DNA from: Rhizophlyctis rosea
Taxonomy: Eukaryota; Chytridiomycota; Chytridiomycetes; Rhizophlyctidales; Rhizophlyctidaceae
Assembly: GCA_027596075.1 (NCBI GenBank)
Contig: JADGJC010000043.1
Span: 1 to 64,000, forward strand
Length of the DNA stretch: 64,000 nucleotides
Direction: 5' to 3'
Under the pieces are notes generated by a model, which was not told where the DNA came from, did no database searches, and was given only the letters and a program-made list of their open reading frames with translations. A program made the position numbers and the translations under genes. Shown here piece after piece: positions 4,970-36,888 of the stretch (positions are counted from its first letter, which is position 1; each line of letters starts with the position of its first letter).

Positions 4970-5711
4970 GTGTTATGGAATGGGGAACAGGTTGGCTCTG
5001 TCTTTATAGAAGCTTGCCACCCTCATGATCAAAGTCATGGCGACATTACAGCCTTCCCCAGACTGCCCTACACGAACTGAGGGTCGTACGAACAAATACC
5101 GAGAGGAGGCAAGAAAGCGATTATGGGCGTCCGTTGCAACTATCACTACCACCCGGCTGTGACATCTCCCCCCGTGAAACGGCTAAGAGAGTGCTCTCCC
5201 ACCAAGAACAAGGCCCTTATCCTCCCCTAACGGCTCAGAGAAGTGCCTTGCCTCGCGAGCATAGTGAATCGTTGGTCTTGAAACTTGAATCTTGATGTGC
5301 GGGCGAAAGACCGTAAGGGAATGCGAAAAGTGTGGACGTGACCGTCCATGCGAGACTGTTTCGAATACCGTAGACCAAACGACGGCCACTTTCGATGTTG
5401 TAGGTGCTATTGTCATGTGAAGTGGGTATCGCAATCAACCAAAGGAATACACCGTTACTGCCGAAGGCCCCCTCTATCCACAAATGGACAGAGTTCAAAC
5501 CGGAGTGGGGAGACAGTAACATCTCGGCCGCAAAAGCGGTGTGCGAGCAAAAAGCTCGGACGTCGGGGCCCAACTTCGAGACGATAGCCGACGTGGGGAG
5601 CCGGAATCTCGAAGCCTTGTCGGGAGGCCAAATGTTTCACCCGGGGGTCGAACCCGGTCAATGCCCAAAAGCAGTGAAACGTGTTAGGAGGCCTGACAAG
5701 GACACCGAGAA
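4970..5711 (-). mobile_element. Structured dispersed repeat, copy 1 (inverted relative to copy 2)
   Basis: Read on the minus strand, this stretch aligns with 20561-21315 along its length. It begins with CTCGG-TCCTT and a mini-tRNA fold, followed by a stem CTTCGAGA/TCTCGAAG, a T5-loop hairpin, a CCGC/GCGG hairpin and an outer stem GTTACTG/CAGTAAC. The blocks at about 5042-5088 and 5163-5200 are nearly identical to copy 2. It ends near a TATA-like motif (plus-strand 5003-5008). It encodes no protein that I can see. The distance from mini-tRNA to TATA-like motif (677 nt) matches copy 2 (680 nt). A SINE-like or other non-autonomous element is the likeliest class, but neither the boundaries nor target-site duplications are established. 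Confidence 0.6.
5634..5680 (-). ncRNA. Mini-tRNA-like fold, copy 1 (acceptor stem, small hairpin, T-arm)
   Basis: On the minus strand GTTTCAC pairs perfectly with GTGAAAC. Between them lie a TGC/GCA mini-hairpin and a T-arm CCGGG/CCCGG with loop TTCGACC. There is no room for both a D-arm and an anticodon arm, so this is not a normal tRNA. Expression is not shown. Confidence 0.55.
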
Positions 5712-5739
5712 ATGACTAGTAGGATGAATGATGCGTGGT

Positions 5740-5839
5740 CGAGTCAAGATGGATGATGGATGGTCGAGTTGAGATGGATGATGGAATGAATATGGATGGA
5801 TGGATGGAGGGAGGGATGGATGGATGGATGGATGTATGG
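5740..5839. repeat. ATGG/TGGA microsatellite
   Basis: Imperfect GATGGA units give way to a cleaner tetranucleotide run at about 5791-5839, with a GGAGGGAGGG interruption. It abuts the mini-tRNA end of repeat copy 1. A similar ATGG run sits just before copy 3. Confidence 0.85.
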
Positions 5840-6336
5840 TATGAGGAGGAGAGTAAAGAGATGAAGGAAGTGTCCGAGGTCTGGGGTTGATTTGGCGGGT
5901 CCAATGTCCAATCTCCATGATCACGTGGACCATTACATAATCCATTACCGTGCCACTAGGAGGTCTGTGACAAACGACGGCCCCTGATGCCATTTGACAG
6001 TGAACCTCCTTGTGAAGTTGTTCCCAATGCGCTCAGAATGATTGAAAGCAAATGCAAATATTACAGGTATTTACAGGGGGGAATCCCCTCTGAGGGGAAA
6101 GAAGGGTACTACTAATCCGTGCAAGTAAGCGTATTCCCGTTCCCCACCAGAAACTTTTTATATGATTTTCTTTTATGTCAATTATTTTTTTGGTATTTCG
6201 TTTTGAGTGTTGCTGTTCTTCCGTGCGTTGATGTTTTATACGTGCCCATGCCATGCAAAATGCAAAAATACCCATCCTTCCATGCAAAAAAAGTGAAGTA
6301 AAGCATCACCGTCCTCCACACTCCACCCCAAGCCCC
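5840..6336. other. Spacer, no gene seen
   Basis: AT-rich sequence downstream of the XPB gene. The open frames are short and I see no recognisable feature. Confidence 0.4.
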
Positions 6337-9335
6337 TCACCTCCCACTCCTCCACTGATTCATCAACTTCTGCCCAGCAGTCTTGATCTTCGTCCCCTCC
6401 TCCTCCTTCTTCTTCGCCGCCCCACCATCCCCCCTCCCCTTCCCCCGTCCCGCCCCACCACCCCTCCCACGTCCCCACCCCCCGCCGCGTTTCAACAACT
6501 GTCCCGCAATATCATCAATCGCAGCCGTCACTTCCTCCTCATTGCCATCATCCTCTCCAGCCCGCAACACCTGCTGGAGGAGCTCTTCCTGCTGTGCGGG
6601 CGTGGAGTAATGCAGTTTGGTGCGTTCTTTGGGCGAGATGAGTTGGTCCAGTGTTGGGATCACCTGTGAGATGAGAGGTACGAGTGACGACAACCCGATG
6701 TGTAAGAAGGAATGGACAAAAGCAACCATACACCAGGTGAGAAGCACAAGAGAAAAAACAAACCTTATACTCATACCCCTGATCAATCAAAAACGTCTTT
6801 CTCTTCGCACTAAACTGCACCTCATCCGTATCCCGACTCACAAGCGTAAAGAACCGACTCCTGAACCCTTCCTCATTCCTCCTCTTCGCTCGCAAAATCC
6901 GTCCCATCCGCTGCGCTTCCTGCCTCCGACTCCCAAACTGACTGCTGATCTGGATCAGGCACGTCGCTTCCGGGAGATCCAGACTCGTGTCTCCGACTTT
7001 GCTCAGAAACACCGTGCGGTACGCCGGGTTTTGCCCCGCGCGGAATTGGTTCAGGACCGCGGTGCGTTCTTGGTGGGACGTGCCTCCGAAGATGTAGGGG
7101 CGGCCGAGCTTTTTGGCGTAGTGCTGGCAGCGAGAGTATATGAGTGATTTGCTGCATAATACAACATTGGAACGAATCCAGCATACCTCAAGCGAGAAGA
7201 CATTGTCGGAAAAGACAATGATCTTGTCCCCCAACCTCTCCCGCTCTCGAATGAGATACTCGCACGCCATGAACTTGTTCGGATTCATCGCGGCCAACAG
7301 ACGCTTGTGACTAGTGAGGGAAGATAAGCCAAAGCCATTCGTGAAACCTCTTCCACCAAAACCTACCCAGTTTTTGCCCTCATGTACTCTTCGTAGAAGC
7401 TCGAAGTCATGGGACACCATATCTCCGTCGCCTAGCAATCAGAAAGAATCAACGTCAACTCCAATCGGACAATCACTTTCACACCCAAAGAGCTGAATCT
7501 CAGACAAGGAGAAAACCCCTCCCAAAAACTCACCTCAACCTTAGCAATATGCCCCCGATTCGCCAAATCCATCCAATTAGCCTCATAAAGCTTCGGCCCA
7601 ATCAAGAAATTCAAATCCTCAATCTTATCATCCTCCCTCAACAGCGTCGCCGTCAATCCCAACTTCGTATGCGCCGCCACCGTCGTAATCACCCTCCGAA
7701 ACACATTCGCCGGAACAACATGCACTTCATCGAGAATCAGAAGCCCCCACTCCCGGTTCCGGATGAAGTTGAGCATCTTGTCGGTTTCCGCGGCGCGTTT
7801 GCCGGAGTGCGAGATCATGGTGTAGGTTGAGATGAGAATGCCGGCTTCGCCTTGGAACTGTTAATTATGATTATCGGGAGAGATTGAGAGTTGATTGAGG
7901 AAGGGTTGTTCTCTGCAAAAAAAAAAAAAAAAAGTGCCATACAGTGTATCCCTACCTTCTTCTTCTCATCCGAAGTAAACTTCGCAATCTGCGGATCCTT
8001 CACACTACTCCAATTCTTGAACTCCTTCGCCCACTGCTCCACACTCAACGCACTAGTACACAACACCAACGTACTCTTCCTCACCGTACACGCCGCCGTA
8101 ATCCCCACAAGCGTCTTGCCCGCCCCCGTCGGCAAAACAATAATCCCACTCCTGGCCCGCCCGCCACCACCACCAAACATCTTGCTCAAACTCTTCTCCT
8201 GGTAGTCCCGAATGACCGTCTTGGGACTCAGGTCAATCTCCAAGTTCGGGTTGACCTCGTCATGGCGGAAGTCGTATTCTTCCATCAGGGTCTGTTGCAT
8301 TTCTATGCATCGTTTTTTCACTTCCTCGACTTTCGTTTTGGAGATTTCGAAGGAGTGCGTGAAGTCGGATTCGGCGTCCGCATCATCTTCTTCGTCTTCG
8401 CGGTCGAGGGTGATGATGGTGGAGAACTCGTCGGGGGCTGATGATGCGGCTGAGGCGCCGTTTGTTGCGGTGGTTGTGGAGGTGCCGTTGGTGTGCACGC
8501 CCGCGGGGAGAAAGTTCTGACGCGGTCGGCCGTTGAGGGCAAAGGTGTCAACTTCGTTGTCGCGGACGATGCGCGAGCCCGAAATGATGGGGTCGCGGAG
8601 GAGGTCACGTAGGATGTCGGGGTAGCTGGACTCGATGAAGTAACTGTATCAACGGAGCGGAATACATCAATACATGGTTTATAGGTCCGTATTTCACAAC
8701 TGATTGTTCATTGACTCCCACTTCGCGAGAGAGTATACACACCTGTTGTGCTTAAGCACCAACTTCACCTTCCCATACGCCTGGGTATACTGCTTGATAG
8801 CCCTAATAACCTTCTCCGGAACTTTCACCTTCGAAAACCTCTCTAAAACATCCAAAATCGTATCCTTTTCCATCCCAACCGACACCGCCGCATACAACGA
8901 ATAAGGCGTCAACTTGAACTCATGCATCCTCGCCGGCCGACTCACGGGCTCCGCAATCGTGATCAAGAAGTCCTGCGCCTGTGCGGCATAGGGGGAGAAC
9001 GCTTCGAGGATGATGCGGCCGTCTTCGCATACCCACATTGGGCGGACTTTGTTGTCGGGTTTGAGGGTGAGGTAGGAGAAGTCGTTGTGGTTGGCGGATT
9101 GGAAGATTGAGGTTGCTTCGTCGGTTATGGTGCGGTGTTCGGAGGTGTCGGTTATGTCTTTGAAGTCGAGGGAGGCTTGGTGGGGGAGGAGGACGGGACC
9201 GCCATCGTCGTCTGAGGCGTCGTCCTCCTGGGGAGGTGGGGAGGGGATGTAGTTTGATGTGTCGGTGTTGAGGACTTTGAATCTTTTTGGAGGTGGGGTT
9301 TCGGTGGGAAGAGCTGGAAATCGGTTGAACGACAT
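6337..9335 (-). CDS. SSL2: TFIIH DNA helicase/translocase XPB (Ssl2/Rad25)
   Basis: This is the ATP-dependent 3'-5' translocase of TFIIH, acting in promoter opening and nucleotide excision repair in the nucleus. Seven exons fit in frame: 9335-8743, 8643-7956, 7857-7534, 7431-7367, 7310-7187, 7123-6764 and 6663-6337. They give 826 residues, the usual family size. The N-terminal domain includes [17 protein letters not shown]. Walker A is LPTGAGKT with its Lys near residue 373. The helicase box is DEVH near 469. Motif III is [10 protein letters not shown]. Later motifs include [24 protein letters not shown] and [15 protein letters not shown]. The C-terminus is Lys/Gly-rich. Intron 2 (7955-7858) contains a long homopolymer A/T run. 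The assignment is firm; only splice details are inferred. Confidence 0.95.
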
Positions 9336-10280
9336 AACACAATTTCGAGGTTTGAAAGGGCGTATGGTGCAATTAAATGTGAAAAGTCAATTCAAGAAGA
9401 CAGCAACATTGTAACAAGTCGTATGTATCACATACGTCGTTTGAGAACAATCCTATTTGCACTCATTCTTCGCCTTATCGCCAACCGTCGGACTACCGAA
9501 GGCAAGTGACGGGGCGAGAACAAGACAATAGGGACCGAGCCGTTACACAAATAGGTTGGTGTTCAGATATACTTATTCCAAGAACTTGTACTGTGTATAT
9601 CTGTTGAACAAAGTTTGTCAACCTCACTGTTCACGACAATTGGATGGGAGTGGTTGATGGAGCTTTCAAACAACAGCAGATGGATGACTCAAAACACTGT
9701 TCTCCTGTCATCCAACCGAAAGTAACAGTTGCTTCATACAGGCAAGGGCTTGCAGGTACCTCTCAACCAAAGCGCACAAGCGGTTACTCCCACCGTGTGT
9801 TACGCACCCACCTTTTATCAAAGTATATTGGACCACTTTGACATTCAAACCCAAAATTGTAGCGGAGAGAGTGGAGTCTGAAAAGAAGCTGCAGGAAATC
9901 TGGTGAAACCAGATATAGCAATCGCGAAGCCACTTCTAGAGGCACAGCATGTGGCACGGCTTGTGGCTAGCATGGCCATGCGTGGTGTTGCCAAGGATTC
10001 AATATCAAAATATCATTGAAGTTGTCATTATGGACTTTTGCGCAGTCAGAACTAGCGAAGAATGCACCATGTCATGCTTATTCATATACATTTAATGTGA
10101 GACGCAAAGATGCGATACTGCAAAATCGGACTACCATCCGCATGCCGCCAATTGCATCCCACCTACCGATTTCTATCTACCTAATTTGTACAAAGCTCCA
10201 ATCTCACTATCTCAGAGCGCTCGCGTCCCTACCCATTCACATGGCCCTTGCAATGCCAAGAAAACGCCTCGGCCCACCCC
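9336..10280. other. Intergenic, no gene seen
   Basis: It lies upstream of XPB and downstream of the E2 gene. The open frames are short and unrecognisable, and I see no RNA gene. Confidence 0.4.
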
Positions 10281-11360
10281 TCACAACCTCCGAAGGGTTC
10301 TCTTCTTGTCCGCCCTCGCCAGTTCAAGCTTGCTCATGGCGGACGCGGGCCTCTTGTTACTGACAGGTTTGCTCTTGGGGCTCGTAAACCCGCCGTTGCT
10401 GGCCCCGAGAACTTGATCCCCGGGTTCGCCACTCCCCGCCGGGGGCGATGATCCCCGAACCGACGCTGCAGCCTGCGGCCTCACTCCCACCAACACACTC
10501 GCCCCGTTGCTCCCACCAGCCTTCGACGACGCCGACGCCGACCCACTCCCACTGAGGATAACTGCCGGGGTCTTGAACTGGACTCTTGCGGCATTCGACA
10601 CGGCATGGACTTGGGTATAGACCGCGGCTCTCGCTTGGAATCTTGCCATATCCTCATGGAACAGCTTTGCAGCCTCCTCGTTCAAGGCCGAGTCAGGGTT
10701 TGGTGTGAAGAGGAGGGATTTGATGGTGAGGAAGACGTATTCTAGGGAGGAGGTCGAGGTCCAGTCCTTTTTGAGGGTGTTGACACATATTTGGCCGGAA
10801 GGGGAGATGTTTGGGTGGAAGATTTTGGTGAGGAAGTAACCTGGTGGCGCGCGATTGTCAGCATTCATTCATCTTGTTTGTGAGACAGCCAGTAACGCTT
10901 CCCATCCTTTACGTACCTTTGGGAGGAGCTTGAGGAAAGTGAGGGCCGAGCTTGAGTTGGACGCGGAAGACGCCACCAGCGAAGGGTGTGCCTACGGGAC
11001 CCTGGATCCAAGCCTGCACGTCACCAATGTTATCTTCATTGATGATCGGTTGGATGCCTTCTGGTGGTGATTGGTCCAGGTGGGTGAGTTCTGTTGAATG
11101 AATAATGGGTAGGACACCTGCTTAGTACGATGTTTGGAAACCGGCGGCAGTGTTGATAGCGAAAGGCACAAGTTGCAACTAAACCATATAACGACCTAGC
11201 GCCTAAGCAAGACTTTTACTCACCTTTTGCAATGCGTTTGAGAACTGATGAGGGAGTCAGGTTCTCGGTTCCAGACTGCGAAATGAAGATTACTTAGCTA
11301 TCAATGTCTGTTTGCATAGACGCAATCAGAAGGCAAGGCTGCAGCAGACAAACTCACCAT
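10281..11360 (-). CDS. UBE2S: Ubiquitin-conjugating enzyme E2 S (UBE2S-type)
   Basis: UBE2S is the E2 that extends K11-linked ubiquitin chains with the anaphase-promoting complex (APC/C). Four exons join in frame (11360-11358, 11275-11224, 11090-10917, 10840-10281), giving 262 residues. The start MSGTENLTPSSVLKRIAKE parallels the N-terminus of the animal enzyme. The UBC core has GPVGTPFAGGVF, PPKGYFLTKIFHPN and the active-site Cys in GQICVNTLKKDW. After the core comes a Ser/Ala/Gly/Pro-rich linker and a basic tail ending KKRTLRRL. In human UBE2S the same LRRL ending docks on the APC/C. The start codon forms an exon by itself, followed directly by GTGAGT. The 262-residue length exceeds the animal protein because of the linker. 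Confidence 0.93.
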
Positions 11361-11958
11361 GATACCCGTGGATGGTGAATGAAGGGACAACGATGTGCAG
11401 ATGGCGGATGGTGGTGAGTTTGATACTAGCCAAAGACAGAAGCGAGGTGCGAACGGCCAAGTGTGAGTGAGGACACTTAGTACACTTCGAGGAGGAAGGT
11501 TTGAGATGAGCGGGAGTGTCCCAGGAGTGACATGATGGTCGGCGCGGGTTGATGATTCGATGAAACTGCAAACTGCACGCTGAACTGCACGCGGCCTCGT
11601 GATCGCATTTGTCATCATGAGAGCGCGCTGACGTAATAATAGGTTAGATGCTTATGCATGGCGCATGATATATAGTCACATCCAAGCCCCACCAATGAGT
11701 GAAGCCTCGTGGCTGTGCATTCAGATTGACGCAGATTGACTCCCACCCTCTCTCTCTTGGCTGGCTTGTTTACGCGTCAATCCTCCTGGCCACTGTTTTC
11801 CCCTCACCAAAGGAAACACCTGTCAGAATTGCATCAAGAAGGAGATCCCACCTCCATTTTCTCACGGAATCGGCGAGCCCTAGATCCGCGGAAGCAGAGC
11901 TCTCTGACAACCAACCTACACACCGTGCCAAAGTCCCCTCCCTTCGGTGTCATACACG

Positions 11959-14697
11959 ATGGAAAACAACATTGTCACCTCCCTCCTCTCCTCCCTCTCC
12001 CTCCAAGGTGACGGGCAAGACAATGGGTTCTTGCCTCACTGCCCTTACGACTTCATCATCGCTCTCGACTTGGAAGCCACATGCGACGAGAACCACGCTG
12101 ACCCTTCTTCGCTGAAGGTCGCCCGTGACAGGGGAGAGATCATCGAGCTCTCTTATGCCGTTGTGTCGGTGCCAGAACGTCGCATCGTCCACCAGAAACA
12201 GTGCTTTGTCCGCCCTCAGGAGACTGTCATTACTCCCTTTTGCACTCAGCTCACCGGGATCACAGAAGAGACCGTCGCCAGCGCTGGTGAGTGTGGTGAG
12301 GTGGATTTCAGAGGGTGGATGTGAAAGGGGTGGGATGAGGTGGGAGGACGGGGAGCGTAGCGCTCTGCGATGATTAGCGCGAAGCGCGTACGGCATGCCG
12401 AAGGCATCGATGGACCGATGTTTTGGCATGCCCAAGGCATGGATTGGGCTGACGCGACTTTGAGAGCATTCGTGAACTGATATTCTGGAAGGCTGCTAAG
12501 GGTTCGTATGCGAGCGGTTAGAAGATGGGCTGAGCAGGGATGGAGGATATGGGATGCTTGAACTATGAAGTTCGCTTACTGATGTCAACTTGTTCAGACA
12601 CTCTCCGGGCAGCGGTGGAGGATCTAGTTTCATTCATCCAAACCCACCCACAAAGCACCTTCTGCCTGATGGCGCACGGAGAATGGGATCTCCGATACCA
12701 ACTCCCGCGCGAATGCAGAGAAAAGGGCATTGCTCTCCCCGCTCAATTCAGCGTCTTCTTCGACGCCATCCGCGAAACCAACCGCGTCCTCTCCCTGTCG
12801 GCAGGTGTCCCGCGCCATGTGACCAACACCTCCATTCCTGGCTTGTGCAAGGCCCTTGGCATTCAACATGAAGGGCGCCTGCACTCTGGATTGGACGACG
12901 CGCTGTCGGTTGCGCGCATTGCTATCGCTTTGCTTCAACGGGTGCAGACGTGGTTTGCGGAGAAGGGTGATGGGGCGGTCCCACCTGGATTGGAGTTGCC
13001 TATGTCGGTGCCCGTGGATCTGGCGCAGGAGATTGATGATTTTGCTGCCTCGCGGTCGAGGGTGTTGAAGTTGATGGGCATTCCGTACAGGCTTACGGAC
13101 AGGTAACACATTGATATTTTCGACAATTTAGCCAATTCATTTGCTGATGTTTTGTGGATAGTCAAGTGCTGACGTTCATTGGGCAAGCTGGTGTGGAGCC
13201 TGAGGAAATTTTCGTTGTGAAGAACTCGGAGGGTCGGTCTGACGGGTGGGGCTTGATCGTGTGCCGTACTCATGAGGATGCCAAAAAGGCTTTGCCGTTG
13301 AACGGACGTATTTTGGCCGACCGCACCGTCCAAGTCAGCCCTGGAACTGAGCAGGATCTGGAGGACACGACTGCAACTCGGGCTCCCTTCATGGTATGCT
13401 TACCGTGATTGTGCGCTGTGCTTGTTTCGCATTTGCTGATATTTTGATCACATCATTTTGCAGACCGAAGCGGAAGTGCAACAAATCACACCTCAGCAAG
13501 TCATGAAACCCGGAGACTGGCTTTGCCCCATCTGCCAATTCCACAACTTTGCCTCGCGGCGTAACTGTTCCAAGTGCAACATCCTCAACCCCAACCCTAC
13601 TCCCTATGTCCCCACGCAACCCTTGAAGCCCGGAGACTGGATCTGCACGGAGCCCACTTGCTCATTCCAGAACTTTGCCTCTCGGGTGCAGTGCATGCGC
13701 TGCAGGTCTCACCGCCCCGCAGGCGTGGTGCCGCCCGGATATGGACAGGATGTGCAGCGGCCGCAGGAGATCCGGCCTGGAGACTGGTGGGTTGAATGGG
13801 AATGACACTACTCAACATGGTAGATCACAAGGGACTGATGCATATTTTTCATTGCTTATATTATGTGTAGGTTCTGCCCTCACTGCAACTTCCACAACTT
13901 TGCATTGCGCCGGAGCTGTGCCAGGTGCAACCTAGCGGTTAGCATTCCGCCGCAACCGCGTCAGTCTATGCAACAGGCCAAGCCTGGGGATTGGTAAGTG
14001 TAATGTCAACTTTTCGATCTACGTTGGACGTAACTTAGCCATTAATTCATGGTTCTTGCTGGGATATAGGCAATGCGCCAACCCAAGCTGCGGCTTCCAC
14101 AACTTCGCCTCCCGCAGCGAGTGCAAGGTATGCAACACCGCCAAGCCGCCGGGCACTGAATACCAATCCACGGGACCAACGGGAGGCCCGTCCGCCGCCG
14201 TCGGCGCTGGCAACAACACCGCCAGCCGCCCCATCCCGCGCCCCACCGAGACCCGTCCCGGCGACTGGATCTGCCCAACCTGCCAAACCCACAACTTCGC
14301 CTCCCGACGCAGTTGCCTCAAATGCCACGCCGGCTCGACGGCGGCGCCCGGAGCGAACGGCGGGTTCCGCAACAACGGGGTGGGCAAACCCATCAATGGT
14401 TCCGGAAGCGGGGCCAGCAAGGCGAACAACCTCCGTCCTGGGGACTGGTTGTGCCCGGACCCCAACTGTGCGTACTGGAACTTCAGGAGCAAGACCAGCT
14501 GTACGCGGTGTGGGAGGGGGAGCGAGGGAGCGCAGGTTGTTCCTGAGGGGTATGCGGGTGGAGCGGGGCAGGGAGGATATGGTGGGTCCAGGAGGGAAGG
14601 AGATTGGGATTGCCCGAATGCGGAGTGTGGGTTCCATAATTATGCCAGTAGGGAGGAGTGTTTCAGGTGTGGAGCTGGGAAGCCTGAGGATTATTGA
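11959..14697 (+). CDS. ERI-1-type 3'-5' exonuclease fused to an RRM and seven RanBP2 zinc fingers
   Basis: Six exons (11959-12286, 12598-13102, 13162-13393, 13464-13786, 13871-13993, 14070-14697) join in frame to 712 residues. Residues of about 30-275 form a DEDDh exonuclease: ALDLEATC supplies the first Asp and Glu, AHGEWDL another Asp, and HSGLDDALSVARI the His and final Asp. This is the signature of ERI-1/3'hExo RNases, which trim small RNA and histone mRNA ends. Residues of about 278-350 look like an RRM. The rest carries seven RanBP2-type fingers, each opening with GDW and carrying two Cys pairs. Such fingers usually bind single-stranded RNA. Introns at 13787 and 13994 both split the Trp codon of GDW as TG|G, so finger 3 occupies one exon. 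The first intron is unusually long (311 nt). RNA trimming with multivalent RNA binding is inferred from the domains. Confidence 0.88.
12392..12444. repeat. Short direct repeat with palindromes inside a long intron
   Basis: Two units of about 20 nt start at 12392 and 12425. Each opens with the palindrome GGCATGCC, continues with AAGGCAT, and they flank ATCGATGGACCGAT. The sequence lies in the 311-nt first intron of the exonuclease gene and could form a hairpin. No function can be assigned. Confidence 0.6.
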
Positions 14698-15594
14698 GGG
14701 CGGTTGATGTGAGGCGGCGTGTGGGAAGGAGGTAGGGGTGAAGGGCTCCTTTTTTAGGAAAACTTATTCTTTTTTTATTCGGTTGACTTTGCCATGGGAC
14801 TTTTGACGGATTGTGAGGTCGACGATTGTACTCCTCACTTTTCTTTCCTGATTGGCCTCCGAGGCATTTTCCTTTTTCCTCTACATATGTACGTAAATTA
14901 ACAGAATCATGAACTTCTGCCATTCCTTCATCATGTCGTGCTTTGGTGCTTGTGAAACTTGTCAAAGGTTGTGATGTGAGGTCAGAGGAAGGAAAATGGT
15001 GTGGTAAACAAACATGAACAAGCCACACCCCTTCAGGGTCCCTTCCCGAGGACCCCCACGCGTCAGGGTCCGGTCCCATGCTGAAAACCATGGAGCTGGC
15101 ATTTAGCCCGCATCATTCTGGAAACCGTTTCTAAATTCCATGCATCCCCCCAACGCCCCCACTACCACACCACCCCTCCAATAGGGGCCTGGACCGGACC
15201 TGGTAACCCTCCGTGATCGTATGTGTATTATGAAATCTATCGGACGTTGCCGGCGGTCTTTCATGGAAATGAGGCCTTAGGTCCCGAGACACGCCGATCA
15301 GTATTAGGTCTAACACCTTTGGACCCGGCATCCCACCTAGTGGTATTGTGCCGATCATTCTGTCCCCTATGCCTTACCATACCAAATGATTTCAATAGAC
15401 TCATGAAGGCTGGATCCGCAAAATCCGGCTACTCGGGACTGATATAAAGACCGAAACCAGCACCGTGTATGTCCCTCAACGGTGTACACACATCAAAACA
15501 CGATACCTCGGTTTGTCAACGCCATCACATGCAATAACACTTTACCAAACACTCTTCCTCTACGCTCATCATCAGTAGGAGCACCTACACAGCA
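14698..15594. other. Intergenic region, no gene seen
   Basis: The first part is the 3' flank of the exonuclease gene, with T-rich runs. The second part is probably upstream sequence of the small gene at 15595. I see no RNA gene or clear repeat. Confidence 0.4.
15441..15449 (+). promoter_or_regulatory. Candidate TATA box before the 15595 ORF
   Basis: GATATAAAG lies about 150 nt upstream of the ATG at 15595. A TATA role is inferred from sequence and position only. Confidence 0.35.
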
Positions 15595-16068
15595 ATGTCA
15601 TCAAACGAATACACCCACCTAATTGAATATTACATCCAAAAAGGCTTTACCCACCAAGACGCACTCCGCGCAGCACGAACAGCATGGCTTTGCACACACG
15701 ATCCACACCTCCTCCCGGCCGATGTTGAAGTTGCGCACCGTGACAGTATCATTGCTACTTCCCGCGTCATGGAGGAGCAAGATCAACAACAGGAGCAGGA
15801 GAAGCATTATCGGAGGGGGGAGACGTTGATGAGGAGGGTTAAGCGGCGGGAGGAGAGGAGAAGGAAGGAGGGGAGGCGGGGTTTTGTGGGAGGGGGTGGG
15901 GGGGAGGGTTTGGTTGTGGGGGGTGGGGAGGAGTTTGGGGGGAGTGGTGGGGGGGCGGGAGTTTCGGTTGGACGGTCATTGTGGATGTTGCGGGAGGATG
16001 TGAGGTTGTTATTTGTTTTGTGTTGTCGGCCGACGCGGAGGACGGAGGGGTTTGTGCGGACTATTTAG
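15595..16068 (+). CDS. Small hypothetical protein, 157 aa
   Basis: This single open frame follows a candidate TATA box. The N-terminal half is ordinary protein-like sequence (EYTHLIEYYIQKGFTHQDALRAARTAW), possibly a short helical module, then an acidic/Gln stretch and a basic Arg-rich segment. The second half is Gly-rich, encoded by G-runs, and ends in CRPTRRTEGFVRTI. I do not recognise a family. The change to GGG-rich composition near residue 90 leaves open whether the real protein ends or splices earlier. The gene call rests on the open frame and the upstream promoter-like motif. Confidence 0.4.
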   Translation: MSSNEYTHLIEYYIQKGFTHQDALRAARTAWLCTHDPHLLPADVEVAHRDSIIATSRVMEEQDQQQEQEKHYRRGETLMRRVKRREERRRKEGRRGFVGGGGGEGLVVGGGEEFGGSGGGAGVSVGRSLWMLREDVRLLFVLCCRPTRRTEGFVRTI

Positions 16069-16443
16069 AATGTCAGATGTTGTTGTTTGGTGGTGTATAT
16101 ATGACAAAGAAGTTTGTGAAGATTGTATATATATGTAAAGTAGTTTGTAAAAACAAGCATGTGTAAAATCTATCTGCTTTTTTTTTTGACCAGAAGAAAG
16201 GTTTCCTTGTGTTGGCCGCTTTGGGCTTTGGATTGCGGAAGCTTGGAAGGGGTCCCAAGCTGGCCAACCTGGCCAAGCTGGCCGACAAAAATAAAACATC
16301 ACGGTTTCAACGCGAGTCCATAGCAAAGCAAGAACAGCTAAATCTTTGATAAGCCCCTTGAATCATCAGCAAGTGATTCCATCCTATATTCAGAACCAAA
16401 ATTTACAATCCCCAGCAGTCCCCAGCGCCCAACACATCAAAAT

Positions 16444-19328
16444 CTACAACTCATCATGCTCAACTTCCTCCGCCTCTTCCTTCTTCTCCTCTTCCTCCTC
16501 TTCCTCCTCTTTCTTCTCCTTCTCCTTCTCCTCCGCCTTCAAAACCTTAACATCAGCCTCAACCTCCAAATCAACCCCCAAATTCTCCCTAACAACCCGC
16601 TCGATCTTCTTCGCAAAGTCCGCAGGCTTCCGTACGGTGTAACCGGAGGCGACGGCCGTAGACTCGAAGAGGACGTAAGCTGTGTCACGAATTTCGGCGC
16701 CTTGGCCGGCTTCGACTTTCTTGAGCATGGCTTGGATGACGGGGTGGTCCTAAACATGTGCATGTCAGCAACTTCAAAAAAGGGACGAAGACCCCAATGT
16801 CGAAGAACACAATAAAGCAAAGACTTACAGGATTAATCTCAAAAATCTTCTTAAACATCATAAAAGCATTCGTCCTCCAATCATCCTTGCGCGCATAACT
16901 CTGCGCCGCCATCAACTTCTCCATATGGCCCGTTGCACCATACTCGGAACTGAACACCGCGCACGGGGACTTGGTGAGTTGTTTGGAGATTTTGACTTTG
17001 TCAACCCATTCTTTGAGTTCTTCTTGGAGGTATTCGACGAGAGGTTTGTAGGTTTCTTCGTGGTTTAGATGGGATTTGTCGTCTGTAGAGGGGATTATGG
17101 GGTGATTAGTAACTTGGTGAAACAGAAAGAGCAAGCTTCTTACCTTCGTCACCGTATTTCACACCGGGCTTGGCGATGTTTTGGAGTTGGTGGCCTTCGA
17201 AGGTGCGGATGTTACCGGTGAGGTATTCGTCGATGGGGTCGGTGAAGTACTAAAACGTGGAACAATCAGTATTTCATTCCAAGATGCACAAAATAACCCA
17301 TCCCTTCGCATCAACAAAAAAGCAAAGACACCTACCAAAACCTCAAAACCCTTCGCAACCAACTTCTCCACAAACGGCGAACTCTCAACAACCTCCCTCG
17401 AATCCCCCGTAACATAAAAGATCTGCTTCTGCCCCTTCTTCATCCTCTCCACATAGCCCGCCAAACTAGTAAAGTTCTTCTCCGCACTCGAATCCCACCG
17501 CAAAAGCTTCAAAAGCTTGTTGCTGTTCGTCCGGTCCTCAATAGCTCCAACCTTCAACGCCGCAGAGTACCGGTCGTAGAACTTCTTGTATTTCTCTTCC
17601 TCCTTGTCAGCCAACTCGCGGATCATTTGGAGGGCTTTGCCGATCAGCTTCTTGCGGATGGCGCGGTATTGGGAGTTGTGTTGGAGGGTTTCGCGGGAGA
17701 CGTTGAGGGGGAGGTCGTCGGCATCTACTAGGCCTTTGATGAAGGCTAGGTAGCGGGGAAGGAAGTCATGGAATTCATCAATGAAGACGCGGCGGACGAA
17801 GAGTTTCATGTTACGGATGACGGTTTGGAGGAAGTTTTCTGGGGGTGTTTCGGGGACGAAGAGAATGGCTTTGAATTCGATGTCGCCTTCGGCCCGGAAG
17901 TGGGAGTAGGTGATGGGGTCGGAGGAGTCTCGGGCAAAGGATTTGTAGAATTCGTTGTATTCTTCGGGTTTGATGTCTTTTGGAGAGCGGGTCCAGATGG
18001 GCTTGTTGGTGTTCATGAGTTCCCAGTCGGAGACAGATTTTTCGACACGTTTGGTTTTGGGCTTCTTGTCCTCCTCCTTCTCCTCAGACACGTCCTCAAC
18101 TTCTTCGTCAGCTTCTTCATCCTTGGGCTTATCCTCCTCCTCTTCGATGGGCACTTCCTCATATTCGGTACGGGTGCTCCACAAGTAGATAGGGAAGTTG
18201 ATGAACTCACTATACTTCTTGACAAGTTCGTTGAGTTTGTGGGTCTCCAAAAACTCAGTTGCATCATCCTTCAAGTGAATGATGATCTGAGTGCCGCGAC
18301 CAAGAGTGTTGCCACGAGGGTCCTCAATGATGCTGAAGTCTGTCAACACGGGTCGGTTAATAAAGCTCTTTATCAAACTTTACTTCGGTTGAGCTACTCA
18401 CCAGTTTCAGAAGTGGACTCCCAGATGTATTGCTTGTCACCATTTGCCTTGCTGATGACAGTCACGCGGTCAGCAACCAAGAACGCAGAGTAGAAGCCAA
18501 CACCAAACTGGCCGATAAGGTTTGATGTGTCGGCAGTTTTGTTCTTTTCGAGAGACGTCAGGAACTCCGATGTGCCAGACTATGCGGATCAACATTTTAG
18601 CATATAAATCTCGATCATGTTTGTCTGCAGTTCAATCCTTCATACCTTGGCAATAGTTCCCAAGTTCTCTTTCAACTGCTTCTTGGTCATACCAACACCG
18701 GTGTCGGCAATCGTCAATGTCTTCTTGTCCTTGTCAGCAACGATGGAGATTTTGAGATCGGAGTTGGACTCAAGGGCGGTTTTGTCAGTTAGGGATAGGA
18801 ACCGAATCTTGTCCAATGCGTCAGAAGCGTTCTGTTATTTGAGAATGGCCCAAAGAAATGTCAGAAGCTGCGTGTCCCAATATGAGCAATAGCGCGTCAG
18901 ACAAACCGAAATCAACTCCCGCAAGAAAATTTCTGCAACAACAGGATATGAATTAGTGACTTCGTCTATGCAAAATCTGCGCCTATTTCTCTCCCCAACG
19001 ACCCCGTGAACTTCACAAACCAACCTTTAGTCTTGTACAAACTGTTGATAATAATCTTCATCAATTTGTTAACCTCCGTCTCGAACTGGAACTTCTCCCC
19101 AGTCTGATGAATTTTGGTCTCATCTTCGGCGGTAAGGACGAATCCCTCTGGAAGCTTGGCTTCAGGGGCTGTCACGGCAACAGGCAAAGTGTCGGGTAAT
19201 GGGATGGAAGGCAAATCGGACGCGTCGGCGTTGACTTCTGCTGACGCTTCGGCGCGGACTGCGGGGAGGGAGACGAGGAGGAGGGAGAGTAGAAGCGCGA
19301 CCAGCGCGAGGAGGTTTGGTCTTCTCAT
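16444..19328 (-). CDS. Endoplasmin (GRP94), ER-lumen HSP90 chaperone
   Basis: An ATP-dependent chaperone of the ER lumen that folds secretory and membrane clients. Eight exons (19328-19025, 18932-18907, 18831-18646, 18579-18402, 18339-17336, 17249-17145, 17083-16829, 16749-16444) give 787 residues in frame. The protein has a hydrophobic signal peptide (about 1-26), the HSP90 ATPase motifs [15 protein letters not shown] and [15 protein letters not shown], an acidic charged linker, a middle domain with [11 protein letters not shown], an acidic C-terminal stretch and a terminal HDEL retrieval signal. Signal peptide plus HDEL separates it from cytosolic HSP90. The first intron has an unusual GTTGGT donor. 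Exon 2 is only 26 nt long. GRP94 is generally missing from Dikarya but kept by many other eukaryotes. Confidence 0.95.
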
Positions 19329-20560
19329 TTTGGGAGAAGCTCGCTCGAATGAATTCAGTGGAGGCTAGTGGGTGGGTGGGGGGGAGAATGGTGCGGGAAT
19401 GGAGGGGGTTCGGGGTTGGGCTGGGTAAATAACAATGTTGCAAACCCCACCTGCGAAACTGGAGGAAACCTGTGGAAAAGCCAGCGGCGGTGGAGCCGGG
19501 GGTACCGTAAACAATTTGGGTTGGATTAATTTGATTGGACATCGTGACGAAGGATGGTCACTGTGCCATCTATGCTGAACGCAAATCGCTTTGGCTCCCA
19601 AAAGAGATAAATCACCAATTCAATCACACTTCATCAGTCACGCGTCTTTTCCCTGTGGTGTCATTCAACAAGGTCAATATCGAGACGTTGATATAGTTGG
19701 TCCGAGTTCCCAGACATTTCGATAGATCCGCCGTACAAGTAGTGGTATGCACTCCGCTTTCGACATTGATATCGCACTGTCATCGTAGCGTCAACTATTA
19801 ATGAGGAATCATGAAGAGAAGCCCCGAAGGCTTAATGTGAAAGCCAAATGAATAAATTCAGCGTTAGAGTTAAACGAAGCACTGGACGCTTTGGATCGCG
19901 GCAGTTGCCAGTGTTCATATAATATAGTCAGTTGTGAATGGCCAGGTTCCACTCACGTTGAAACACTTGATCCGATCCTGACGATCCGAATCTCCGATGA
20001 TTATTGTTTGGCTGACTGAAGTTTGCGCTGACTTACACCCTAATATGTGTTTCACATTAGAAACTGATGCGGTCACTTACATATTCCTGGTCTTATCCGC
20101 GCAAGATGTAAGTGCCAATTGCTTGCGCGATTTGCGTTGGCCTTTGTGGGAACGAGCATTGGTAATGAAGGCGGCGTGCTGTTCCCAGACTTGTCGATAG
20201 TTCGTGCACCTTGCGAGCATGATCTACTCTTGTGCTGGGCACATTGATCACACTCAAGGTAAATAGGAACATGAATTTCAATTTCTCACTTGGTATCTGG
20301 CAACCGGGCTGAGCGGGCCAGCGGCACAGCACAACATTGTGTAAGCAATTGATGTGGCTTGTGATATGGCACAAGCCCCTGGTCGGAACAGTCCTTTCCC
20401 ATGAACCCCAATCCTTTCCCCACTTCTTCTTTTGTTCCTTTACCTTCCCATTTGTCTTCACATTATGAACATCTACCTAACCAATAACCATCGTCACCAT
20501 CAAGATCACATTCCACCATCCACCGTCCATCCCTTCTCTCCAACGTCAAAACCTCCTAGC
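19329..20560. other. Intergenic, no gene seen
   Basis: It covers the upstream region of GRP94 and about 1 kb of unassigned DNA before repeat copy 2. Open frames are short. Degenerate ATCC-type sequence (about 20500-20535) lies just before copy 2. Confidence 0.4.
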
Positions 20561-21315
20561 TCGGCATCCTTCTTAAGGCCTGCCCAATACGTTTCACTGG
20601 TTTCGGCCATTGGACTGGGTTCGATCCCCGGGTGAAACAATTTGGCCTCTGAGCAGGCTTCGAGATTCTGGCTCCCCACGCTGGCGTCCGTCTCGAAGTA
20701 GGGCCCCTATTGTCGACCGTCGAGCTTTTTGTCTCGCGAACCGCACGCTTGCGGAAGGTACTGCTTCCCCCTTCCGGTAGGAGCTCCATCCTTTCGGGGG
20801 TGGAGGGGGGCGTCAGGCAGTCGGAGTTTTTTTTGGTTCCGTAATAGGTAAGTATCAACAACGGCATCAGTACACGGCACGAGTACGGACTCCGGCACAC
20901 GATTCGGCGGCGCTCTTCTTCGGTCAACGGCATCAACAACGTTTTCGTCTCTCCGCTAAACGACTCGCTAAACGGCTTGGCAAGATTCAAGACCAATAAT
21001 CACCAAGCTCGCGGGGACCGAGTGCTTTTCTGAGCCGTTAGGGGAGGAAAAGCATTTCTGTTCTCGGTGGGGAGAGCACTCTCTTAGCCGTTTCACGGGG
21101 GGAGATGTCACATTTTTGTGATGGGGAAAGTTGCAACGGACGTCGGTCTACTCAGCACTGGATACTTTGAAGGCTATGAGCATATATCATTTTCGACCCT
21201 CAGTTCGTGTAGGGCAGTCTGGGGAAGGCTGTAATGTTGCCACGACGTTGGTCGTGAGGGTGGCAAGCCCCTGTAAAGACAGAGCCCAACCTTCATCCTT
21301 ATCGCATTCCCAAAA
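20561..21315 (+). mobile_element. Structured dispersed repeat, copy 2
   Basis: This is the counterpart of the minus-strand copy at 4970-5711. In order it holds CTCGG-TCCTT, the mini-tRNA fold (20591-20638), the stem CTTCGAGA/TCTCGAAG, a T5-loop hairpin CGAG/CTCG, a CGC/GCG hairpin, a hairpin CTCCA/TGGAG inside an ACTGC/GCAGT stem, and the conserved 3' blocks containing GAGAGCACTCTC. It ends near TGTAAAGACAGAGCC (21271 onward). There is no coding capacity. Stems are preserved where bases differ from copy 1, which suggests selection on an RNA fold at some stage. Exact boundaries are not established. Confidence 0.6.
20591..20638 (+). ncRNA. Mini-tRNA-like fold, copy 2
   Basis: GTTTCAC pairs with GTGAAAC as a perfect 7-bp acceptor-like stem. 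Inside are a TGG/CCA mini-hairpin and a T-arm CTGGG/CCCGG with loop TTCGATC. A B-box-like GGTTCGATCC is present. No second arm exists, so it cannot be a decoding tRNA. Confidence 0.55.
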
Positions 21316-21718
21316 TACAGATCGTACCCGTCAATATATTTTATTCATCATCTTTGCCGTGTGTTGCCCGTTTGCATGCAAATGTAAGCGGACTCTAGTG
21401 TCATGTCTGATCAACCAGGAGCAATGCGTCGCGCAGTACTTCCAGTGGTCCCAACCAACTGTTATTCTATGGGGGCAGACCTGGAACCATTGGTGGAACA
21501 AGGACCCATGCACAAGATGATGAAATGCCAAACCCCCTTTTCCGTTACCTGCCAAATCTCCTTGCCTCCATCCCCCGCAGGTCAAAGGTGTCATCGATGC
21601 TCTATCATCAGAACCCCGGACGCGTTTTCTCCTATTTTACAGTCTATTCACTATGGTATATCCTTCTCCTCCCTATAAATCTCCCCACCTCTAAAACCCC
21701 CCTCCCCCCAAAACACCC
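21316..21718. other. Spacer, no gene seen
   Basis: Sequence between repeat copy 2 and the 3' end of the TAM41 gene. I see no feature in it. Confidence 0.4.
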
Positions 21719-23200
21719 CTACTTAGCCGCCCACCTCTTCTGCAACTTCTCCCCAATATAACTCAAACTCCTCCCCGGTCCCGCCGTGATAAACCCCTTC
21801 AGCGTTTGCGCTATCGCCGGCCACCGCGATACATCTTTCAAACTCTGTTCCACCAGTGGCCCCACTCCCTCCTCCGTTGCTATTCCCTGACTCAAAAGTG
21901 GCTCTTCACCCGCCTCGCCGGTTAGTTGGGATATTTTCCCCGCTGTGACCATGCGCGCGCGATAGTTTGTTAGGACTTGGTTGTACATCTTTTTGGGCAG
22001 TTTTTGGATTAGGGTGCCGCGGAGGCGGGGGTGGTCGTCTTGCTGATGGTTGGTGAGAGTAACGTTGGCAGGTGGGTGGAAGAAGGTCAGAGTATTCTCT
22101 TTTGTGTTGTCTGCGAGGTTTCTACGTACCACTATCGTTGTTCCGTCAGCTAGGTAGTTGGTGTTTGGGAGATCCTCAATAATAGGTTTATAGATTTCTC
22201 TAAATGCATCCATTTGCGTATGTACAATGTTGTATACTTTATGTGGGTTTTCTCCGAAAGACATGCGAACGTCGCCTGCATGGCGGGTGAGGGGTACTCC
22301 ATCAGGACATGCTGGTATTGAATATGAGTCCCAGATCATTTATCGACGCACCTTTATAAGATAATCCTGCAACAGTCAAAAACAATTCCTCCTCCGTAAA
22401 TTGGTTGGGAAGTAGTAATAGTGCAGTCCGAACGGCTGAACGGAGGTTCTTCCGTGCTGCGATGGTGATTCTAGCGTCCTCACGGATGGTACGGACTGGT
22501 TTATGGAGGCGGCCGGCCAAGTAGAAGGTCTCCCATTCTGTCAAGTCGTGAAACAGTCGGTCCATAGATACCACTCCATACTTTATGCGCTGCGATCGAG
22601 TGCAGTGTAAGAGTTCTGTTGCACATGGATTCAAGACATAAATCGATGCCGCATTCAAAGACCTTGCTCAACTTACCATTCCATCGACAACAACATTTGG
22701 ATTGTAATACATGCCGGCCCCGATCTTATCTTGTAATAGATACACTCCTCGGCTTCCGAGAAACCCTGCTGCGGAATAGTGACTTCGGTTTTGTCGGAGG
22801 TTCAAGGAATGCCAGTGCTCTGGATGTGTTACTCCAAAGATGAGATCGATCATTGGTGCTTTCTGTGGAGTTCGTGATAGCGTTTCAATGAGCGACTGAA
22901 CTGAACAATGCCATGAAGAAGCTTTGAGGCCACTCTCCGCACCTTTCCATTGCCCGTCTCATAACCGCGCTGTTTGAACACGCCTGACCCATATGCAACC
23001 GCATATCGTACTGGGGCGTTGAAGTGAGATAATATCGACTGCAAGCGGTCTTCCGTCTCTTTGTCTACTGAAACTGAAGGAGATGGAGTATCCGCGCGCG
23101 AGTGAACTGTTGAAGACAAAGCCCGCGATGGCGTTGGAACGAGGAAAAGTGCGGTACGTTGGGGTAAGGACGGAATGCGGTTACAGAATATTCTGGTCAT
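21719..23200 (-). CDS. TAM41: Mitochondrial phosphatidate cytidylyltransferase TAM41
   Basis: Tam41 makes CDP-diacylglycerol from phosphatidic acid and CTP on the matrix side of the inner membrane, the first step toward cardiolipin. Four exons (23200-22943, 22862-22677, 22589-22352, 22275-21719) join in frame to 412 residues. The N-terminus is Arg/Ser/Thr-rich and lacks acidic residues, as expected of a mitochondrial presequence. Family motifs follow: VAYGSGVFKQRGY (nucleotidyltransferase GSG), MIDLIFGVTHPEHWHSLNL, QNRSHYS, KYGVVSMDRLFHDL and EWETFYLAGRLHKPV. It lies near two other mitochondrial genes, the presequence protease and bL27. Confidence 0.95.
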
Positions 23201-23620
23201 TTCTAAAACCTAAACTTGGAGGCTAGCGAAACGGCTGATAGACTGAAAGACCCGCTTCAGGGTCAACCGCTATGCTTAAAATATTCACGAAGATGAAGGT
23301 GTCGTGATGGCAGGAACAGTTGATGAGTTTGAGGGGACAAATATCACCGGAACAACTTCGCGGCCAAGGAAGATTATTTTTGGCAACCCACAGACTGATG
23401 GGGCCGATGTGAACATACGGCAAGGGTCCTTCAAGGACAAGTTGAACAGTAAGGACCCTGACAAAGATATTGATGGCTAATAATGCGCCACACGGTGGGG
23501 AAATATGTGGGCGCACCATTCACGCAGCGTCACTCCCTTCTTCCTCTACACTTCAACTTTCCCATGTGTTCAACCAACTAACCGTTTTGCATTTTTCTTC
23601 CTTTAGACTTGCGGCGACCG
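23201..23620. other. Upstream region of TAM41, no gene seen
   Basis: Likely promoter region of TAM41. The minus-strand open frame at 23223-23519 has no recognisable motif. Confidence 0.35.
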
Positions 23621-23665
23621 GATGAATGGATGGATGGATGGATGGATGGATGGTTGGTTGGATGG
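23621..23665. repeat. ATGG/TGGA microsatellite before repeat copy 3
   Basis: About ten TGGA-type units with TGGT variants at the 3' end. It lies about 30 nt before the mini-tRNA fold of copy 3, mirroring the run beside copy 1. Confidence 0.9.
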
Positions 23666-23691
23666 GCAGATATCTGTCTCTTAGCACTTTC

Positions 23692-23741
23692 GGTTCATTG
23701 GGTTCTATGGCCCATCAACGGGTTCGAGTCCCGTATGAATC
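23692..23741 (+). ncRNA. Mini-tRNA-like fold, copy 3, followed by a T6 run
   Basis: GGTTCAT pairs with ATGAATC (one G-T wobble). Inside are a TGGG/CCCA hairpin and a perfect T-arm ACGGG/CCCGT with loop TTCGAGT. The 3' strand is followed at once by TTTTTT, a typical Pol III stop. An A box is not clear. There is one arm too few for a decoding tRNA. Confidence 0.5.
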
Positions 23742-23989
23742 TTTTTTAGGGCTCGAATGGGAATGTCTTCGCTTCAAACCCGAAGCTTCCTAAGCGAGTT
23801 CTGGGGAGCTTTTTGCTTCCGAATCACAACTCGCGCTGGGCGTTCATTCCTACGGGGGTGAACCGGTCTTCACTTGGCGGTGGGGATTACCGGTGAAAGC
23901 GAGCACAGGTAAACGGTCCCTGGAGTACGGTTCCACACTACCTATCCAATGTCACGCCCCACTTGAGTCCTTCGGGAGGAGAGTGGATG

Positions 23990-24026
23990 GATAGTGCTCG
24001 GTTGGCTAAAGAGCCAAGGCACTATC
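23990..24026. repeat. Strong inverted repeat (hairpin)
   Basis: GATAGTG and CACTATC form the outer stem, and TTGGCT and AGCCAA the inner stem around AAAG. It lies inside repeat copy 3. It has no T-run after it, so it does not look like a simple terminator. Confidence 0.75.
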
Positions 24027-24217
24027 ACCCAAATCCTGCGGGAGGAGGGTCGACTTCAGCAACCAACGCCAACCTGCCCGAGTCCAATCACGGAGGAGGG
24101 CATTCTGTGATCCTCGCAAGAGGGGAGCAGGATTATTCCAGGCGCACATTGGAAGGGGCAAAACCGTTAGCTAGTCTGCCTCTGGCCTCTCTTTGTGCGG
24201 CCTTTCCTTGTATAAAT

Positions 24218-24765
24218 CCCCTTCACCCTTTGTGCAGACTAGTCTTGTATGCCTTACAGATACTCTGCAAATTGTGTAAATTAATTTTCCAGCCAGGGCA
24301 TATCACAACCTCGACGACAACAACCTCGACGACGACAACCTCAACAACCGCAACCTCAACGACCGCAACCTCAACGACCGCAACCTCAACGACCGCACTT
24401 TCAATGAAGACAGCCACTCGACCCCTCCCCAATCGCCAACACACGTCTACTTATCCCTCCTCCTCAAAAACCCCGGATATACAATTTTTTGCGAACACTG
24501 GACTGCTTGTTCTTAGGTCCATTTGTATGTATGGAGCCACCACCACCACGTGGTGAGACGTGGGAGCTTATTTGAGTCTCCAGTCTTCAAAGAGTGGCAC
24601 CCCAAATATTTGTTTGTGGATACTTCAACTGGCTGATATTGATCAGTGAAATATATTCCTCCTTACCCGTGCTACTAGATTATGCCGCCATCGTGCAGGT
24701 GATGTGATAAAATTTACATTGTGGAAAAGTGAAATAATAAAGCAACTCATACACTGGTCTAACAA
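24218..24765. other. Spacer with a minisatellite, no gene supported
   Basis: It contains the 15-bp tandem repeat listed separately and then the 3' flank of the presequence protease gene. A Thr/Ser-rich open frame crosses the repeat, but it comes mainly from the repeat itself. Confidence 0.4.
24305..24394. repeat. 15-bp minisatellite, six units
   Basis: Units such as ACAACCTCGACGACA grade into GCAACCTCAACGACC, the last three being identical. In one plus frame it reads as TSTTT/TSTTA repeats. Confidence 0.85.
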
Positions 24766-36654: not shown

Positions 36655-36888
36655 GTGCACCCTTCTTGTTCGAGTCCTCTCTCAGACTCCGACGAGACGA
36701 CCCCAGAAGAACAACACATCCCTGACCTACCGGTGCACCCCGCAGCGTCAGACACTCTCTCAGAATCCGACGCGCTGATCACAGAAGAACAACACATTCC
36801 CGATCTACCCGTGCACCCTTCCTTGTCGAATCCTCTCTCAAATTCCGACGAAATGATCACAGAAGAACAATACATCCCCGATCTACCT
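36655..36888 (+). repeat. 78-bp tandem coding repeat, three units
   Basis: Units beginning GTGCACCC start at 36655 and 36733 and 36811. Each encodes 26 residues of the type VHPSxSxPLSxSDE then TEEQHIPDLP. The third unit merges into the F-box-like segment, so the repeat seems to have grown from its first strand. Confidence 0.85.

Follow-up and report, generated by a model that had tools for sequence, protein, structure and literature searches.

What are the three small tRNA-like folds in a 64,000-nt stretch of the chytrid Rhizophlyctis rosea (the whole of the DNA analysed, hereafter the window), and what part might they play in the RNAs that contain them? A preliminary description of the window had reported three sites with one common layout. 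The letters are as claimed, and a strict scan for 7-bp acceptors combined with 5-bp T stems closed by a TTCRANN loop returned exactly these three sites, here called mini-tRNA copies 1 to 3, against a mean of 0.033 and a maximum of 1 match in 60 dinucleotide-shuffled windows. They are not canonical tRNAs: ARAGORN called no tRNA gene, the cloverleaf with an anticodon, anywhere in the window. The protein-coding genes of the window include XPB, Hsp90 and Tam41, and a U5 spliceosomal RNA gene lies at 63409-63527 on the plus strand (60.5 bits). For the one protein searched, the best match (69%) is a protein without a name, and the only match with a name, from Cladochytrium tenue, is weak (52% over 32% of the query). 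Two repeat tracts were also observed, namely three 62-nt repeats at 13519-14328, where by eye a reading frame resembles repeated zinc-finger units, and three copies of a 78-bp repeat at 36655-36910. The genome searched was the R. rosea assembly (44.1 Mb, 634 contigs), and all family counts given below come from this one genome. Features of the window are collected in Table 1.

Table 1. Coordinates of the mini-tRNA folds and associated modules in the window. R1 and R2 denote covariance models.
Feature	Position	Strand	Remarks
Mini-tRNA copy 1	5634..5680	-	R1 66.4 bits, E 5.6e-15; R1 training sequence
Mini-tRNA copy 2	20591..20638	+	R1 62.1 bits; R1 training sequence
Mini-tRNA copy 3	23692..23741	+	R1 58.2 bits; R1 training sequence
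T6 run directly 3' of copy 3	23742-23747	+	other loci lack such a run
Element 1, mini-tRNA to twister	4990..5680	-	
Element 2, mini-tRNA to twister	20591..21290	+	
Body downstream of copy 3	23748..24250 (end approximate)	+	single copy by DNA search
UUUUU-loop hairpin CGAGC(UUUUU)GCUCG	5544..5558	-	CUUUUUG starts 79 nt after copy 1
UUUUU-loop hairpin CGAG(CUUUUUGU)CUCG	20721..20736	+	CUUUUUG starts 86 nt after copy 2
UUUUU-loop hairpin GGGAGC(UUUUU)GCUUCC	23804..23820	+	CUUUUUG starts 67 nt after copy 3
CAAGACC motif	20988..20994	+	near start of second conserved block of element 2
Hairpin CCCUCAG..GGG + CAGUC directly before twister 1	5053..5086	-	
Hairpin CCCUCAG..GGG + CAGUC directly before twister 2	21194..21227	+	
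Twister-P1 ending element 1	4990..5052	-	Rfam 35.9 bits, E 6.4e-5; R2 53.4 bits, E 7.5e-12
Twister-P1 ending element 2	21228..21290	+	Rfam 48.6 bits, E 1.5e-8; R2 57.4 bits, E 6.6e-13

Copies 1 and 2 share the acceptor GTTTCAC/GTGAAAC; copy 1 has the hairpin TGC/GCA and the T-arm CCGGG TTCGACC CCCGG, and copy 2 the hairpin TGG/CCA and the T-arm CTGGG TTCGATC CCCGG, which includes one G-U pair. Copy 3 is built from the acceptor GGTTCAT/ATGAATC (one G-U), the hairpin TGGG/CCCA and the T-arm ACGGG TTCGAGT CCCGT. Compensatory change had been proposed from these letters, which are correct; however, copies 1 and 2 lie within homologous inverted elements and are not independent of each other, so that few compensatory changes come from the window alone, and the strong covariation evidence is genome-wide. 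Minimum-energy folding recovered the tRNA-like shape for copy 1 and not for copies 2 and 3; across seven sequences it gave four tRNA-like folds, one with a shortened acceptor and two that were not tRNA-like, which is not decisive. Microsatellites of GATG/GGAT type lie just upstream of copies 1 and 3, at 5748-5839 and 23620-23665, and CATCCATC is also frequent upstream of twister ribozyme sites (20 loci in the sense and 3 in the antisense orientation, of 73).

The three window folds belong to a larger family, with about 30 mini-tRNA loci in the 44-Mb assembly. A first covariance model, built from seven copies, gave 24 matches at E ≤ 1, 22 of them distinct, in 86 sequence sources. Genome-wide, one mini-tRNA pattern matched 17 sites (2 when reversed), a second, in which only three acceptor letters were fixed, matched 25 (2 when reversed), and a third matched 9 sites, every one already known (0 when reversed). 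All 13 new sites of the second pattern were fetched: seven have 7/7 acceptor pairs and 4-5 of 5 T-stem pairs, five are chance matches, and one, C146, is homologous but has its stem shifted. A site of the first pattern, C1, was discarded as an exon-like chance match that received no score from the covariance model. The 30 loci counted comprise 29 at E ≤ 0.01 and a thirtieth, C32, at E 0.076, and 26 of the 30 were found by the mini-tRNA pattern alone. The exact pattern had no match in viral contigs, and no literature on such a family was found among open-licence papers as judged from titles and the beginnings of abstracts.

Both main stems of the fold, the acceptor and the T stem, covary, and the same holds for 20 loci on which no model was trained. 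In alignment A6 (29 rows, fitted to the covariance model), 91.6% of cells are paired and 10 of 15 pairs show double changes, with a covariation score of 0.347 compared with 0.167 for shuffled and at most 0.100 for slid alignments; the second acceptor pair occurs as GC, UA, AU, CG and GU, and the number of further pair types was reached by 5 of 500 shuffles. Because A6 leans towards its own structure, alignment A7 was made from untrained loci, that is, from the 29 rows without the seven training copies, C146 and C101a. These 20 sequences were aligned by sequence only, and the acceptor and T stem were counted: 96.3% of cells are paired, double changes affect 6 of the 12 pairs, and the score of 0.324 exceeds those of shuffled (0.147) and slid (at most 0.097) alignments. 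Two A7 measures are weaker, since shuffles reach them, namely further pair types (72 of 500) and pairs with changes on both sides (12 of 500). The preliminary description had named a lack of covariation among genome-wide copies, or of related folds elsewhere, as grounds for refutation; within this genome its claim withstood that test, with about 30 loci and covariation well in excess of the shuffled and slid controls.

Judged by its sequence features, the fold is consistent with an acceptor, a D arm and a T arm without an anticodon arm. T8 is present in 29 of 30 loci and C at position -1 in 25 of 30; the discriminator is A in 21 of 30, and an encoded CCA occurs in none. Hairpin and linker were counted in 27 of the 30 loci (all except C146, C101a and C32). 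The small hairpin may represent a reduced D arm: T8 is conserved and a D-loop-like GG lies near its 3' side in 21 of the 27 copies. The hairpin itself is statistically weak: stems of at least 3 bp occur in 25 of 27 copies, compared with a shuffled mean of 18.9 and maximum of 25, and 67.1% of its cells are paired on A6, less than in the acceptor and T stems, in part because the register shifts between copies. The decoding arm had been reported as missing, and this is borne out throughout the 27 copies, where only 13-19 nt separate the acceptor from the T stem and thus leave no anticodon-like arm.

The proposed resemblance to mascRNA holds for the layout, but not for model scores. The Rfam mascRNA-menRNA model (RF01684, cut-off 42.5 bits) scored copy 2 at 21.8 bits (E 1.1) and copy 3 at 19.5 bits (E 0.39), far under the cut-off and non-significant, and did not list copy 1; its best score in the genome, 26.8 bits, fell on a site with a tRNA-sized linker. 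The same search bears on whether the folds could be decayed tRNA genes or products of chance, as it returned mostly tRNA-like sites in this genome and, at a lax threshold, matches in 14 of 14 control genomes; the resemblance to tRNA in two arms points the same way. Decay or chance would nevertheless have to produce double changes that preserve pairing and to outdo the shuffled controls of both the scan and the covariation analysis, and ARAGORN called no tRNA in the window. We consider this explanation extremely improbable.

A further question is whether the tRNA-like part acts in transcription rather than in RNA processing. Nearly invariant in the family is GGTTCGANNCC, which we take to be the core of the B box from its consensus, and the fold might accordingly be an internal RNA polymerase III promoter that binds TFIIIC. 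The T6 run after copy 3, already noted in the preliminary description, would suit such a promoter; it is present, but it is not a feature of the family, with T5 or longer within 20 nt of the fold in only 1 of 30 loci. A promoter does not require acceptor pairing, yet the second acceptor pair exists in five different combinations, and locus C16a carries GGGTCGA in place of the box. The sequence downstream of the folds also argues against it. RNA polymerase III is expected to stop at or near T5, whereas a T5 here sits in the loop of a hairpin with covarying arms, the UUUUU-loop hairpin, defined as a CTTTTTG word whose flanking arms form 4 pairs or more. The window holds only three such hairpins on both strands, one per mini-tRNA, among 15 occurrences of the word. 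Over the 22 loci that preceded the last eight found, a UUUUU hairpin lies within 900 nt downstream in 15 (about 790 nt were read in 10 of the 22) and on the antisense strand in 0. Of the 22 upstream segments, shorter than the downstream ones, 3 also contain it, namely those of C89, C16b and C101a, where another unit's twister sits just upstream. Among 47 CTTTTTG words from mini-tRNA and twister loci, the arms pair over at least 4 positions in 30, compared with 5.1 on average and at most 13 for shuffled arms. Such pairing across T5 suggests that the RNA continues through it. The promoter explanation therefore appears rather unlikely to us, and RNA polymerase II is tentatively favoured because the hairpin arms covary across T5. 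Splice signals gave this choice no support: they are not enriched before twisters (5 of 73 sense, 4 of 73 antisense), and introns were dropped as proof of RNA polymerase II, the candidates having been seen by eye in a few relatives with a pattern that is not enriched.

The UUUUU hairpin is one of several modules that follow the mini-tRNAs. Elements 1 and 2 are homologous units of about 700 nt that form an inverted pair 15 kb apart, each headed by a mini-tRNA, and alignment with their relatives C16a, C135 and C89 resolves them into conserved blocks separated by variable linkers. Downstream of mini-tRNAs, CAAGAC occurs 37 times in the sense and 4 times in the antisense orientation (17 of 22 loci versus 4 of 22). 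The RNAs appear to be noncoding: three open frames across elements 1 and 2 had no Pfam match, and an open frame across the copy 3 body matched Pfam only below the cut-off. GTAAC, shared by element 1, C16a, C135 and C89, was set aside as a splice site: further upstream lies a GTTAC or GTTAT with which, by eye, it pairs, and structure is the likelier explanation.

Individual loci show further repetition. At L095 (C605), CAAGACTCCCTC is repeated many times after the mini-tRNA, forming an array of the CAAGAC motif. At L086 (C15) and L093 (C442), repeats of about 100 nt, recognised by eye downstream of the mini-tRNA, contain AAGGCAC, GGAAGGGACT and GAAGTGCCGCTGG, with GTATG or a variant next, and resemble repeated small exons with short introns. 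At L027, L087, L088 and L093, GGTCTGAGG is repeated after small hairpins (13 sense, 0 antisense, 4 of 22 loci). A long hairpin, GTGCCTGGTGTGG..CCACACCAGGCAC, follows the mini-tRNA at L014, L034, L038 (imperfectly) and L092, and its loop holds a possible 5' splice site; a possible 3' splice site comes after the hairpin.

Elements 1 and 2 both end in a twister-P1 ribozyme. The two window copies score below the Rfam gathering cut-off of 67.2 bits (RF03160), and both are training sequences of our own genome model R2, which was searched without filters. The Rfam model has matches at at least 61 places in the genome, four of them above the cut-off (61 of 3377 candidates were scored), and R2, built from 35 sites, gave 73 matches in the loci examined, 35 of which are its training sites. 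Against a manually defined structure based on the twister fold, the 35 sequences have 97.1% of cells paired and double changes in 17 of 24 pairs, a number reached by 4 of 500 shuffles, and a covariation score of 0.520 compared with 0.165 shuffled and at most 0.143 slid. Each of the six helices, the pseudoknots T1 and T2 among them, shows double changes. A hairpin of at least 5 bp precedes the twister at 26 of 34 sites of the window subtype (type B) versus 18 of 39 other sites, and CAGTC precedes it at 25 of the 34. In the body of copy 3, neither Rfam twister-P1 nor R2 detected a twister. The exact twister pattern had no match in viral contigs or prokaryote genomes, and one weak R2 match in the window, at 54463-54531 on the minus strand (E 0.67), was rejected because on inspection it resembles chance. 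A large twister subtype is preceded by CACGAGTTCCTTCA.TGGGATACAGCAGAGCC or variants (L043, L044, L046, L048, L051, L053 and others), and several twisters of this type share contigs C624 and C61.

Mini-tRNA and twister are associated, but the association is not obligatory: for 19 of the 30 mini-tRNA loci, the search of 1 kb to each side detected no twister, and at most of the 73 twister sites the flank examined lacks a mini-tRNA. In 8 of 30 loci the mini-tRNA is followed, after 406-604 nt, by a twister; several of these loci were fetched because of their twister. Among the 26 loci found by pattern, 5 have a twister within 1 kb downstream, or 3 of 24 without the two window elements that supplied the query; the chance of 5 in 26 is about 1e-10, a rough figure that assumes 104 twisters. 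None of the 73 twister sites has a canonical tRNA in the flank examined. Four loci instead have a twister 25-88 nt before the mini-tRNA, an order more in keeping with neighbouring or tandem units than with one simple layout. At L042, a further twister (3451-3537, plus strand) lies about 600 nt away from the twister upstream of the unit and on the other strand. Poly(A)-signal-like words, typical of fungal poly(A) sites, are present in the 150 nt that follow the twister at 28 of 73 sites, compared with 6 of 73 before it, which fits a tailed precursor that is trimmed.

This arrangement raises the question of mobility. Twister and hammerhead motifs occur in retroelements (PMC7761336), the C16a unit has a twister on both sides, and elements 1 and 2 are inverted 15 kb apart, so that the loci might be remnants of SINEs with a tRNA-like head or of retrozyme-like elements bounded by ribozymes. 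Such elements would be expected to have many similar copies and a reverse-transcriptase partner, and neither was found. A 451-nt query matched three places in the genome, two besides itself at 79% and 75%, and copy 3 found only itself; at least 12 reverse-transcriptase matches exist in the genome, the nearest, among the matches listed, about 5 kb from a listed twister. Moreover, the bodies differ while the structural modules stay, and covariation in mini-tRNA, UUUUU hairpin and twister indicates selection after duplication. Remnants of mobile elements are on these grounds a very unlikely explanation.

The reading that we favour, to which we give about an even chance, is that the mini-tRNAs stand at the head of structured, apparently noncoding RNAs, from which RNase P and RNase Z would remove the leader; in those that have a twister, this ribozyme would remove the tail. 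What the genome shows is the modules, the order in which they lie and the selection on them; the cutting, and the release of an RNA free of cap and tail, are predicted. The primary transcript would fold the mini-tRNA near its 5' end, RNase P would cut at the 5' side of the fold and RNase Z after the discriminator base, and the leader would be lost together with any cap. The twister, where present, would cleave itself near its own 5' strand, removing everything downstream, including any poly(A) tail. The products would be a defined uncapped, untailed RNA and a free mini-tRNA of about 46-50 nt. In the most speculative step, tRNA ligase could in principle join the ends of the product and circularise it.

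Alternatively, the mini-tRNA might stay uncut in the mature RNA as a tRNA-mimicking module that serves in 5' protection, export or binding by a tRNA-binding protein. The elbow features are kept in the family, and the shape of mascRNA depends on the elbow formed by its GG and T-loop (PMC11693755). A stable hairpin (z < -1) directly 3' of the fold in 13 of 30 loci, compared with 4 of 30 at 115-160 nt and 6 of 22 upstream, would likewise suit a retained module. The lack of CCA together with the frequent discriminator A, however, suits a processing substrate at least as well, and retention seems to us rather unlikely.

Extending the processing model, and with less than even confidence, we propose that these loci constitute an undescribed class of eukaryotic noncoding RNA gene in which the mini-tRNA sets the 5' end and the twister the 3' end, yielding uncapped, untailed and possibly circular RNAs. 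Such RNAs would be assembled from shared modules (mini-tRNA, UUUUU-loop hairpin, CAAGAC motifs, pre-twister hairpin and twister), of which each uses a selection. According to a plant review (PMC10226581), it remains unknown what twister ribozymes do in rice and what ribozymes do in plants, "as in most organisms". If the proposal is true, twister would have a regular cellular role as a maker of RNA ends. In this genome dozens of twisters recur in one kind of position, at the tail of structured RNAs, and some of these RNAs have a tRNA-like head; the question of what twister is for could thus be answered by end mapping of a few RNAs. The mini-tRNA, for its part, would be a natural minimal substrate encoded in a nuclear genome, with acceptor, T arm and elbow under selection and the decoding arm gone.

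Several known systems are comparable. Like the tRNA-like domain of tmRNA, the mini-tRNAs combine an acceptor, a T arm and a D loop without an anticodon arm; tmRNA is bacterial and consists of two halves joined through a long insert, whereas the mini-tRNA is one compact unit of 44-50 nt. Retrozymes, which are hammerhead-bounded retroelements (PMC4918200, PMC7229834), are likewise noncoding units with a self-cleaving ribozyme; the present units have a different ribozyme and a tRNA-like head, and neither recent copies nor a sign of mobility was found. The twisters share with twister-P1 (RF03160) the conserved core, the helices and both pseudoknots, with covariation, and differ in that the window subtype has a swapped pseudoknot T1, with GGC/GCC for CCC/GGG, and that they serve as the tail module of structured RNAs. 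Closest in design are mascRNA and menRNA (RF01684), from MALAT1 and MEN-beta, which RNase P and RNase Z cut out and to which CCA is added. With mascRNA the mini-tRNAs share a 7-bp acceptor, a T arm, perhaps a reduced D arm with GG, the lack of codon reading and, probably, an origin as part of a longer noncoding RNA. In mascRNA, as its structure is outlined in PMC11693755, the acceptor (nt 1-7) and D arm (8-18) are followed by an anticodon-like arm (19-33) and the T arm (34-50); the mini-tRNAs dispense with that anticodon-like arm. Furthermore, mascRNA lies at the 3' end, whereas the mini-tRNAs head a conserved body and occupy about 30 loci in one genome.
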